NCBI GenBank assembly: GCA_031272025.1
Contig: JAISUP010000015.1
Location: 1 to 36,702 of the forward strand
Origin: Bacteroidales bacterium
Lineage (GTDB): Bacteria > Bacteroidota > Bacteroidia > Bacteroidales > WCHB1-69
Direction: 5' to 3'
Length of the DNA: 36,702 nucleotides
In this document: piece by piece, positions 28,896 to 36,114 of the stretch
Numbering within the stretch: the first letter of the stretch is position 1
How the letters are laid out: the number at the start of each line of letters is the position of its first letter
Translations under genes and position numbers: made by a program
Notes under the pieces: generated by a model
Seen by the model: the letters and a program-made list of their open reading frames with translations, nothing else
Database searches by the model: none
Told to the model about the DNA's origin: nothing

Positions 28896-28900
28896 AAATA

Positions 28901-29050
28901 CAGTTGGACAGTTGGACAGTTGGACAGTAGGACAGTAGGACAGTAGGACAGTAGGACAGTAGGACAGTAGGACAGTTAGACAGTAGGACAGTAGGACAGT
29001 AGGACAGTTAGACAGTAGGACAGTAGGACAGTAGGACAGTAGGACAGTTG
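28901..29050. repeat. 8-bp tandem array, GGACAGTA/GGACAGTT
   Basis: About 17 copies of an 8-base unit, first as GGACAGTT and then mostly GGACAGTA, with single-base variants (TAGACAGT) breaking it into sub-blocks of three to six copies. No spacers are present, so it is not CRISPR. It starts six bases after the DUF2147 stop codon. Confidence 0.92.
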
Positions 29051-32753: not shown

Positions 32754-32916
32754 TGTCCCGTTAGGGACATTATGTTGGTAGAAATGTGTTTCTTTTACCC
32801 TTCTTGCCGTCCCTATCGGGACGGAATGTGTATTTGTTGTTCACATTTTGTCCCTATCGGGACAAGAGGCAGGGGGATATTCATTTTTCTACCAATATTT
32901 TGTCCCTAACGGGACA
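32754..32916. repeat. Nested inverted repeat, MITE/BIME-like
   Basis: Outer arms: TGTCCCGTTAGGGACA plus TTGGTAGAAA on the left (32754-32784), and the inverse TTTCTACCAA plus TGTCCCTAACGGGACA on the right (32886-32916), 28 of 31 positions matching. Each arm holds its own 16-base palindrome. Two more palindromes of the same GTCCCTATCGGGAC family lie inside (32807-32824 and 32849-32864). Such GTCCCTAACGGGAC palindromes are, in my recollection, scattered through many Bacteroidetes genomes. There is no open reading frame inside. Confidence 0.85.
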
Positions 32917-33002
32917 TTTCACCCCCAAAGCACAAATCCATCGCCCGACTCTTTGACCAAAATTTTTGGGCTAAATCCGCGGGGGTGTCGTGTTGACGAA
33001 GT

Positions 33003-33040
33003 CATAAAATATGAAACATAAAATATGAAATGCAAAGATA
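33003..33040. repeat. 38-bp direct repeat, copy 1 (downstream of ATPase)
   Basis: Two tandem CATAAAATATGAAA 14-mers followed by TGCAAAGATA. It is identical over 38 bases to 34330-34367. On the minus strand it contains TATCTTTG (33033-33040), a promoter-like box that here faces only non-coding sequence. Confidence 0.92.
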
Positions 33041-33181
33041 GTGTTTTTTGGTTAAATTTTATTTCAAATTTAATTTTTTTCTTCGCGAGTCTTCGTGTGT
33101 CCTTCGTGTAATCGAAAATTCTTACACTAAGTTCACGAAGAAGACACGAAGTTACACGAAGATGAGGCAGGTTACAAAAGG

Positions 33182-34312
33182 TTATAATCTTTCCAACCAA
33201 AGCGAGAAAAATCGGTCATAGACAAAATATTTCCCGTCTTCGTCTTTCAAAACTAACGATTTGTTTATCAATGCTTTGAGTGCTAATTTTACACTGCTTG
33301 GCGCTGTGAGATTATAGCGTTGCATAAAGCGCGATTCATACGGCTCTGCAACCTTCCCTTCTGCCGCAATCGCCTTTAACAGACGCAGTTGCCCTTTGGT
33401 TATCAATTCGCAATAAGTTTTATAAATGGCATTTTCTTCTTTCAAAAGTTTTTCGATAGTCGTATCCGCATCAATCTGAGCATACTGCTGTTTATTGTCC
33501 GTAAACAACTTATTCAGAATGACTTGAATATACCAAGTATGACCGAACATTTTATTGTAAATATAATCAAATACCTGACTGTCAAAATTTTTGCCGTATT
33601 TTGAGAACAAATTCAAAGCAAAAATCCGATAGGTTTCAATCGGAATTTCTTGCAGGTTCATTATCTGCGAACTGCGATAGAATGGGCGATTCGCGGCAAA
33701 AAACATCGCGGTCATCAGATGCTGTTTGCTGCCGGAAAAAATAAAATGCACATTCGGCAAAAACTGGATATACGAGCGCAACAACGCTTCCGTGCCTTTT
33801 TCGGGATATTCGGTAATCTGCTGAAATTCATCGAAAGCGATAAAAATTTCTTTACCCGACTGTTTCAAATAATCGAAAATTTCTTTTAATGTATTTCGCG
33901 CCTTATCGGGCTGAATATCAAACGAAACGGTTGGCACACCGGATTGTTGGTCAAAACTGAACAGAGGTCGAATACTTTTGAAAAACGCGGTAATGTTACT
34001 TGCAACCTTCTCGGAAAAACTGTCTAACTGCCCCAAAACGCTTTCGCCGAAAAGTGTAACAAAATCCGACAGGTTTTGAGTGGAAAAAATGTCGATGTAG
34101 AAACAGCGGGCAGTTTTATCGTTCTCTTTCAAACGATAAAACACGTTGTGTATCAAGCCGGTTTTGCCGATACGTCTGGGGCTTATCAGCGCTACGTTGC
34201 GTCCGTTTTTCAATGCCGAAATCACGGTTCCCGTTTCAGTTTCGCGGTCGCAAAAGTAGTCGGGACTTTCGTAACCTGCTACCAAAAAAGGATTATCCAA
34301 CAATTTTTCCAT
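33182..34312 (-). CDS. AAA+ ATPase (archaeal-type/STAND-like ATP-binding protein)
   Basis: A 376-residue ATPase. It starts LLDNPFLVAGYESPDYFCDRETE, the usual opening of this group. Walker A is the variant SPRRIGKT (44-51) and Walker B is IFIAFDEFQQ with Asp161-Glu162. FSGSKQHLM supplies a sensor-like region, and the last 80 residues look like a winged helix (TKGQLRLLKAIAAEGKV, SVKLALKALINKSLV) ending in FFSLWLERL. Such genes occur in many paralogous copies in Bacteroidetes; their function is not established. It is bracketed by identical 38-base repeats, the upstream one supplying its promoter, which suggests a cassette that can move or recombine. Confidence 0.88.
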   Translation of the reverse strand: MEKLLDNPFLVAGYESPDYFCDRETETGTVISALKNGRNVALISPRRIGKTGLIHNVFYRLKENDKTARCFYIDIFSTQNLSDFVTLFGESVLGQLDSFSEKVASNITAFFKSIRPLFSFDQQSGVPTVSFDIQPDKARNTLKEIFDYLKQSGKEIFIAFDEFQQITEYPEKGTEALLRSYIQFLPNVHFIFSGSKQHLMTAMFFAANRPFYRSSQIMNLQEIPIETYRIFALNLFSKYGKNFDSQVFDYIYNKMFGHTWYIQVILNKLFTDNKQQYAQIDADTTIEKLLKEENAIYKTYCELITKGQLRLLKAIAAEGKVAEPYESRFMQRYNLTAPSSVKLALKALINKSLVLKDEDGKYFVYDRFFSLWLERL

Positions 34313-34329
34313 CTCTATTTTATTTAAAA

Positions 34330-34367
34330 CATAAAATATGAAACATAAAATATGAAATGCAAAGATA
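34330..34367. repeat. 38-bp direct repeat, copy 2 (ATPase promoter region)
   Basis: Identical to 33003-33040. Each 14-base unit contains CATA-AAA-TATG, a small imperfect palindrome, so the pair could be a tandem operator. The repeat covers the ATPase leader: the -7 box TATCTTTG is at 34360-34367 on the minus strand, 47 bases before the ATG at 34312. Confidence 0.9.
34360..34367 (-). promoter_or_regulatory. Promoter -7 box of the AAA ATPase gene
   Basis: TATCTTTG on the minus strand followed by CATTTC, inside the 38-base repeat. The same box is present but orphaned at 33033-33040. Confidence 0.55.
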
Positions 34368-34402
34368 CGAAATATTTTTTATTTCGCAAACAATTCTGCA
34401 TT

Positions 34403-34887
34403 TTACTTCCTTTCGGTAATTTCCTTCACCACTTTTGCCGGTCTGCCTGTCGCTATTGTCCACGCCGGAATATCTTTCGTAACCAACGAACCTGCGCCTA
34501 CAATGGCGCCTTCGCCAACAGTTACACCCGGCATAACAATTGTACCCATTCCCAACATACAGCCTTTTTTCAATACAATCGGTTTTCTGTGATACGGTAA
34601 AGATGCTGAATCATCCCCAATATAATAATCCGTTAAGTCGCGTTTATGACATAACAACAAACAGCGATTCGTTATGTGAACGTGGTCTTCCAACTCAATT
34701 AAATCAGTGTTTGTCATATCCACCCAAACTTCGTATCCGATATAACAGTTTTTCCGATTTTCGCCCCCATCCATCGCCAGATAATCGGGCGGATTTTGCG
34801 ATAATTAAGAGGCGACAGAATAACGGAATACATCGAATATTTCAGCAAAAAAGCGTTGCGGATGTGCTTGAATACGGATTTAATCAT
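34403..34887 (-). pseudogene. Hexapeptide-repeat acyltransferase, broken by a one-base frameshift
   Basis: An O-acetyltransferase of the left-handed beta-helix (LbH/maltose acetyltransferase-like) type, the sort found in polysaccharide clusters. The N-terminal part, MIKSVFKHIRNAF then SPLNYRKIRPIIWRWMGAKIGK, is read in the frame of the transposase ORF. The rest, NCYIGYEVWVDMTN then GDDSASLPYHRKPIVL, MLGMGTIVMPGVTVGEGAIVGAGSLV and TIATGRPAKVVKEI, is in another frame. The two join perfectly if one A is added to the run of five at 34750-34754, giving GKNCYIGYEVW. Without the shift it would have about 161 residues. It is either a recent mutation, a slippery-run switch or a sequencing error. Upstream sequence is IS-derived, so the promoter is probably lost. 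Confidence 0.82.
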
Positions 34888-36114
34888 TTTTGCAACAGAT
34901 ACATTACCGTATTCTTTTTCCGAGAAATTTAATCCTAATAATTTCAAAAAGCGGTAAGACACTCTGAAGCCGTAAGCATTCCGTTTCATAACCTTTATCT
35001 TATTGTTTATGCCCTCCACTTTTCCTGTTGATATATGACAGTCGTACCATGCAAGTATCCCCGTTCTGTGAGCCATAATGGTATTTGCCATCTTTATTAA
35101 CAGAGGGACTTTGCTCTCTGTAGCCTGAGCCACCCAGTCAAGAATAACATTCTCGGCCTCCTCCTTGCTGATTTGCATCCATATTTCCTTGAGATGTTCC
35201 TTGAGATAGTATGCTTGCGATAGAGGCCGATTCATTTCCAAGGCATTTTCAAGTCTTGTCTTATACTTCGTGTCATAGATGTCTGTTCCGTTCATAAGTA
35301 AAAGATATCGTGTTCCTTTCAATACCTTACGCTTATTGATGTCCTTTTCCATGTGGTATTGTGCCTTGCGTATAACATCCAGTTTATCGTTCATCAGTTT
35401 TACCACGTGGAAATGGTCAAAAACATGAACGGCATCCGGACAATTCTCATATACGGACGCGATAAAAGCAGCTGACAGATCCGTTGTGATGTATTTGATG
35501 TTGATACCTCTCTTCTTTATCCGCTTCCAGAACTTATTTAAGGCTTCGCAACCTTTTCCATAACCGACGTAGAGAATACGACCGCTCCTTAAATCAACCA
35601 CAATTGTCTTATACACATGCCCTTTCCTAACCGAAAATTCATCTATACCAATGCTTTCAACACCATCTAATGAAGGTGGAGAATAACGATATTCCAGGTA
35701 ATTTGTATGTATCTCTTTAATTGTGTCCCATGAGATTCCCAACAGGTTGGCTGTATCTTTTAGAGTCATGCCCCTGAGAAGTCCGACAACGTATTTCGCA
35801 AAGCGATGGGTATAGCTACGGCTACCTGTGGCAAAGGGGATTGTCTCTTGTTGGTCGTAAGCACACTCTTTGTTCTTGCACTTGTAACGCTGCACTTTCA
35901 TACGAATTATCAACTTTTTGCCACCAATGGGAAGATCGATGAAGTCACGAATGCGATAGCCATTCTTCACCAAATGACGATGACCGCACTGTGGACATAC
36001 TTTCTGGCGCTCTTTTGATTCCACATGCAAGATAATTGTGTTACCTTTGTATTCCTCACGAGTGCATCTGTGGTTATAGAGACCCCATGCATGATATAGA
36101 AAACTGCTGTTCAT
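34714..36114 (-). CDS. ISL3-family transposase, C-terminus replaced by chromosomal sequence
   Basis: DDE transposase of ISL3 type. An N-terminal zinc finger with two Cys pairs (CPQCGHRHLVKNGYRIRDF, 40-59; CKNKECAYDQQ) and a helix-turn-helix (MTLKDTANLLGISWDTI, 116-132) are present. The catalytic triad candidates are Asp158 (GIDEFSVRKGH), Asp212 (TTDLSAAF) and Glu367 (TGKVEGINNKIKVMKRNAYGFR). After AYGFR (residue 384, base 34963) the expected family ending is absent. The frame runs on through about 25 residues of unknown origin into the acyltransferase N-terminus and then out of frame. All catalytic residues remain, but the element has lost one end, so the ORF is a chimera of doubtful activity. 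Confidence 0.88.
   Translation of the reverse strand: MNSSFLYHAWGLYNHRCTREEYKGNTIILHVESKERQKVCPQCGHRHLVKNGYRIRDFIDLPIGGKKLIIRMKVQRYKCKNKECAYDQQETIPFATGSRSYTHRFAKYVVGLLRGMTLKDTANLLGISWDTIKEIHTNYLEYRYSPPSLDGVESIGIDEFSVRKGHVYKTIVVDLRSGRILYVGYGKGCEALNKFWKRIKKRGINIKYITTDLSAAFIASVYENCPDAVHVFDHFHVVKLMNDKLDVIRKAQYHMEKDINKRKVLKGTRYLLLMNGTDIYDTKYKTRLENALEMNRPLSQAYYLKEHLKEIWMQISKEEAENVILDWVAQATESKVPLLIKMANTIMAHRTGILAWYDCHISTGKVEGINNKIKVMKRNAYGFRVSYRFLKLLGLNFSEKEYGNVSVAKMIKSVFKHIRNAFLLKYSMYSVILSPLNYRKIRPIIWRWMGAKIGKTVISDTKFGWI

Follow-up and report, generated by a model that had tools for sequence, protein, structure and literature searches.

The ATPase locus and its repeated 38-mer

The window, a 36,702-bp contig from a Bacteroidales bacterium, carries near one end a gene for a 376-aa ATPase that lies between two exact copies of a 38-mer (CATAAAATATGAAACATAAAATATGAAATGCAAAGATA), at 33003-33040 and 34330-34367. 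The copies share one orientation and start 1327 bp apart, and the ATPase ORF (33182-34312, minus strand) is the only one between them, all as the earlier note had described when it reported a cassette bracketed by perfect direct repeats. Chance cannot account for an exact repeat of 38 bp. A search of the whole genome (1.88 Mb in 104 contigs, the window being contig C101), which that note had proposed, returned exactly three copies at up to three mismatches: the two in the window and one on another contig (G000:C9:6218-6255, hereafter C9). The reversed pattern, used as a control, had no match in the window genome.

Read on the minus strand, the 38-mer resolves into TATCTTTG-CA-(TTTCATATTTTATG)x2, a Bacteroidota -7 promoter box followed by two 14-bp units with dyad symmetry. 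The box fits TAnnTTTG, the -7 consensus of the phylum (PMC7366714). In front of the ATPase it is preceded, 19 nt upstream, by a TTTG that fits the known -33/-7 layout, and the array of 14-bp units behind it reaches into the leader of the gene, whose ATG is at 34312. The -7 box is present in each repeat, but the copy at 33003 has no TTTG at the 19-nt spacing. The locus comprises the following features:

33182-34312, minus strand: ATPase gene, 376 aa, PF01637 (ATPase_2), with a C-terminal winged helix (profile match, AlphaFold2 model, fold comparison)
33218-33403, minus strand: winged-helix DNA-binding domain of the ATPase, residues 304-365 (AlphaFold2 secondary structure)
34330-34357, minus strand: predicted ATPase operator array, two 14-bp dyad units (TTTCATATTTTATG)x2 in the initially transcribed leader (sequence; conservation in 12 relatives; near-exclusive to the ATPase in relatives' genomes)
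34360-34367, minus strand: -7 promoter box TATCTTTG (sequence; published consensus)
34387-34390, minus strand: TTTG, likely -33 motif (sequence)
33003-33030, minus strand: second copy of the operator array, behind the ATPase stop and between the convergent ATPase and lpxB-like genes (sequence)
33033-33040, minus strand: -7 box copy of this orphan operator (sequence)
32754-33151, no strand assigned: block near-identical at C9, consisting of the dispersed element, the orphan operator and flanks
32754-33004, plus strand: dispersed intergenic element of about 250 bp with GTCCC..GGGAC palindromes and right end GTTGACGAAGTCA, abutting the orphan operator (repeat copies in the genome)

Next to the ATPase promoter, at 34403-36114, an ISL3-family transposase ORF (34714-36114) runs in frame into the apparent N-terminus of a neighbouring hexapeptide acyltransferase, the remainder of which (34403-34774) is in another frame, a combination of IS insertion and frameshifted gene. 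Elsewhere in the window, a 29-kb stretch has at each end an array of an 8-bp unit (ACAGTAGG/ACAGTTGG; 42-105 and 28900-29050), next to additional intergenic repeats that the two ends have in common.

The ATPase scores 42.6 bits against the PF01637 profile, above the curated cut-off of 33.2, and is thus a member of that family. Its Walker A (GKT, residues 49-51) and Walker B (DEF, 161-163) motifs are conserved. An AlphaFold2 model (mean pLDDT 91, from a 45-sequence alignment) places a winged helix at the C-terminus, with helices at 306-318, 327-332 and 338-350 and strands at 354-356 and 362-364. The closest solved folds are 2QEN (PABY2304) and 2FNA (SSO1545); these PF01637 proteins resemble the window ATPase in profile membership, fold and C-terminal winged helix. 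Orc/Cdc6 and RuvB follow, the former as a likeness of fold only, as neither Pfam nor NCBIfam gave an Orc1/Cdc6 match. PADLOC models gave marginal matches only (best E=0.00075, to mad8), none of which made a convincing case for an anti-phage defence system. PF01637 ATPases are common, often present in several copies per genome and of unknown function. A search of the literature on the family, with most subscription journals outside its scope, found no description of operator arrays or of a biological function, and such arrays are not described in those portions of a dark-matter review of archaeal genomes (PMC4158269) that were available.

Arrays upstream of related ATPases

Relatives were collected as 80 loci from a scan of species genomes. 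Those closest to the window ATPase form a clade of proteins 60-67% identical to it, in genomes labelled Dysgonamonadaceae, Tannerellaceae, Prevotellaceae, Paludibacter and others. In 12 relatives of this clade, 26-28 of the 28 operator bases are kept, compared with 64-68% identity in coding DNA, and the sequence farther upstream is mostly unrelated. A near copy of the 38-mer occurs once each in two of four same-genus genomes, directly before a 64%-identical ATPase. Across 16 whole genomes with relatives, the 28-bp array is present in 14 at up to three mismatches; the other two (L049 and L055) carry diverged or partial forms. A comparison of coordinates placed the array essentially always at the ATPase and as a single occurrence, the exceptions being overlapping registers, a variant before a second ATPase (G170) and the two orphan copies of the window genome. 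A widespread 38-mer unrelated to ATPases, which the earlier note had named as the outcome that would speak against it, is therefore not what other genomes contain.

The relationship extends beyond this clade. Most ATPase relatives are preceded by short dyad arrays whose spelling is particular to each clade, such as TTTCGCATTTTGCG, TTACG..CGTAA types, ACACCAAAAGTGTT, ATCATTTTATGATA, TTTTTTTCGGTAAT and others. Counting a direct repeat as significant if it was equalled by at most one of 60 shuffles, we found one upstream of 53% of ATPases, compared with 12% of the remaining genes at these loci. The best period was exactly 14 bp for 79 of 88 repeat-bearing ATPase upstreams in a first set and for 91 of 103 in an enlarged one; about a third of the subfamily (53/156) showed no repeat at the threshold used. 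Mean run score was 10.7 at period 14 and 3.4-5.0 at other periods, whereas 371 control upstreams were flat over periods and scored 3.9 at period 14. Several of the period-14 matches among the controls proved to belong to additional ATPases or to neighbouring genes with which an ATPase shares its array. Dyad symmetry, counted as at least 4 of 5 pairs, was present in 74% of units and in 38% after shuffling. In a sister subfamily, marked by PFxFG or FTDR at the N-terminus and including a paralog in the window genome (L006), the period is 15 in 17 of 20 cases. A PF01637 subtype of about 480 aa (L218, L219, L221, L223 and L227) has, in place of a tandem array of 14/15 bp, inverted arms flanking the -7 box, as judged by eye from few examples.

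The suggestion that the paired small palindromes resemble an operator has thus gained strong support from period, dyad symmetry, conservation and exclusivity to the ATPase: the dyad sites recur over the promoter of the very gene to which they are specific. That the 38-mer is instead an ordinary housekeeping promoter, or an AT-rich simple repeat with no bearing on the ATPase, strikes us as extremely improbable. TAnnTTTG is indeed the general promoter box of the phylum and the unit can be parsed into degenerate heptamers, but in relatives the array is essentially single-copy and ATPase-linked, control genes have no 14-bp period and the window genome holds just three copies of the 38-mer.

Position relative to the promoter varies. 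In 77 relatives with a recognisable TAnnTTTG box, the array is just downstream of it in 28, upstream in 45 and across it in four, so control may work differently from gene to gene. This also bears on whether the array works as an RNA leader structure and not as a DNA operator, which we consider highly improbable. The array does lie within the transcribed leader in the window and in most of its clade, but in the 45 relatives where it precedes the -7 box it is not transcribed from that promoter, and there was no Rfam match.

Two further arrangements were observed among the relatives. One locus (L060, 3001-5376) has tandem ATPases with different operator arrays (TGACATATTTTATGTTGCATATTTTATG and TTTCGCATTTTGCGTTTCGCATTTTGCGAAA). 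At three others (L092, L103 and L187), open frames diverging from the ATPase share its operator region, and any real divergent genes among them may be co-regulated.

A predicted self-controlling ATPase

Taken together, the 38-mer reads as a core promoter box plus a private ATPase operator, and with good confidence we propose that the ATPase binds the array and controls its own transcription. An archaeal-type P-loop ATPase with a C-terminal winged helix would occupy the pair of 14-bp dyad units that overlie its promoter and the start of its leader; once bound, it would control, and probably repress, its own transcription, and its ATP state may set the filling of neighbouring units. Since most relatives have an array of their own, spelled differently and spaced by the same 14 bp, the family as a whole is suggested to consist of DNA-binding, self-controlling ATPases. 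Less probably, a separate regulator that travels with each ATPase acts on the arrays.

Operator type follows protein similarity. ATPase pairs share an operator in 75% of cases at N-domain distances below 0.3, in 42% at 0.3-0.4 and in 2-7% above 0.4. When pairs of equal distance were binned, the block at residues 295-334 of the winged helix predicted sharing better than any other in three of the four (AUC 0.87, 0.77 and 0.78; 0.65 in the fourth bin). The lead of the winged helix over other protein blocks was uneven (AUC 0.57-0.84 for the domain as a whole), and over all pairs the correlation between operator and C-terminal part was weak (partial -0.09), a mild winged-helix preference appearing in the stratified test only. 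These comparisons lend mild support, short of proof, to the idea that the winged-helix domain reads the operator. In what is likely the recognition helix, the residues that directly follow the conserved SS[VIT] differ between classes (RL, SR, KK, RS or QS), and they can be matched to the operator arms.

ATPase paralogs within one genome never shared an operator (0/38 pairs), a count confounded by the fact that such paralogs are distant from one another and sharing is then rare anyway; the three ATPases of the window genome have three unrelated arrays. The earlier note had imagined a promoter-targeted unit through which paralogous ATPases are exchanged. We abandoned this idea, as operators differ among paralogs and the C9 copy is a duplicated block (see below).

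The haloarchaeal Orc1/Cdc6 proteins offer a working parallel, in manner of working as well as in fold. There, each origin depends on the cdc6 gene located with it, and the Haloarcula hispanica origin oriC2 is held in check, probably by titration, by an ORB-rich region that lies downstream of cdc6E (PMC3936714). Both cases appear to combine an ATPase and a winged helix with a gene paired to its own neighbouring repeats and with extra boxes downstream, which are titrating in Orc1/Cdc6 (PMC3936714, PMC3528665). By contrast, the arrays described here consist of 2-4 units of 14 bp over a promoter, and the protein is not an Orc1/Cdc6 member by Pfam. Plasmid initiators, antitoxins and restriction-modification controllers have self-regulated operator arrays, which the ATPase would resemble in binding repeats at its own promoter; here, the product is a P-loop ATPase without a recognised partner, and the repeat length is fixed for each subfamily at 14 or 15 bp while its sequence varies. 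Self-regulating operators as such are of a known kind, but a spacing specific to the subfamily together with a sequence that changes by clade appears to be new for a P-loop ATPase family. As each ATPase gene comes with its predicted binding site, the role of the family can be tested at once; if the proposal is correct, these genes would provide naturally orthogonal ATPase-operator pairs and a reason for the many paralogs per genome.

The downstream operator copy and the question of mobility

The copy at 33003 is a surplus operator without a gene to drive. It abuts the dispersed element of about 250 bp, whose sharp right end is common to about a dozen copies in the window genome, several of them at contig starts; the element is nearly absent from same-genus genomes. 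On either side, the third copy of the 38-mer, at C9, has the flanking sequence of the copy at 33003. It therefore belongs to a duplicate of the block at 32754-33151 and is not the product of an ATPase deletion, and an excision scar at C9 was discarded on the same grounds.

Downstream copies are a recurrent feature. Operator copies lie behind the ATPase at 7 of 115 loci, compared with 0/113 far upstream and 0/117 in gene bodies (mismatched-pair rate 0.0015). These seven loci have seven unrelated operators: besides the window and loci L240 and L123, they are L124, L173, L175 and L213, where the downstream copy begins no more than 6 nt past the stop codon (+6, +0, +4 and +0, respectively). Convergent genes flank the copy in four of the seven (the window, L124, L175 and L123), and in the L175 genome the two bracketing sites are the only ones. 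Given this recurrence against empty controls, bracketing of an ATPase gene by its own operator is a real, if rare, anatomy, and the second copy would be a site that titrates the protein or else what remains of a lost paralog.

It is possible, although we hold it tentatively, that the downstream copy is functional, with the ATPase binding in front of and behind its gene and the more distant site titrating the protein or closing a loop. Recurrence with unrelated operators, the convergent setting, the restriction of sites to the two brackets in L175 and the precedent of the titrating region downstream of cdc6E are all in keeping with such a role. Against it, the arrangement is found in only 6% of loci, it is absent from all window-clade relatives examined and the window copy belongs to a block that also occurs far from the ATPase.

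For the window, this last point leads us to favour the stump. The promoter and operator would then be what is left of another ATPase copy from this clade, in tandem or not, whose coding sequence was lost, with the dispersed element inserted at the operator edge and the block later duplicated to C9. We regard this history as quite plausible without being assured of it. The operator and -7 box are identical to those of the live gene while the flanks differ, the array type is otherwise exclusive to this ATPase clade and the end of the element abuts the operator. On these observations, the earlier note's view of the repeats as the scar of a tandem ATPase duplication is possible, although the coding remnants that such a loss might leave were found beside neither orphan copy (33003 or C9). 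As a general account, loss of a paralog would also demand a fourfold coincidence of precise deletion just past the stop in L124, L173, L175 and L213.

Judging by their differing flanks, ATPase gene and operator occur together at many different locations. Direct repeats of operator or flank could then mark insertion and excision of a single-gene mobile cassette, which we judge unlikely. Upstream flanks are unrelated in nearly all relatives, and duplications of host flank surround the ATPase in L049 (95 bp), L056-L058 (integrase 3' ends) and L121 (18 bp). However, the repeats enclose one ATPase ORF and no recombinase or transposase, C9 is not an excision product and direct-repeat brackets of any kind, which looked enriched against mismatched-pair nulls alone, were found at 12/123 ATPases compared with 7/169 control genes, a difference that is not significant (p=0.09). 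We consequently make no claim of transposition. The few relatives in which duplicated flanks enclose a single gene do recall the insertion of restriction-modification genes with long target duplications; unlike there, the window repeat is an operator and not host flank, and flank duplications were not significantly enriched over control genes.

More broadly, one could imagine a large bacterial family of initiator-like ATPases built as self-contained modules of an ATPase plus a private iteron, bracketed by iterons in the complete form, coexisting because their iterons do not cross-react and spreading as single-gene selfish units. We offer this as speculation that is rather unlikely to hold in full.

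A phage origin was set aside, as the exact operator was not found in IMG/VR and only two phage records, both weakly related, were found. Plasmid relatives are less than 60% identical. In locus L049 (2810-4243), the 95-bp duplication is a diverged copy of the 5' end of the next gene, which encodes an ITGHRN protein; the arrangement is like that left by insertion with long target duplication. Finally, five plasmids of Bacteroides sp. CACC 737 (NZ_CP059406, 07, 10, 11 and 12) contain ATPase relatives in two to three pieces without annotated genes, suggesting frameshifted copies.
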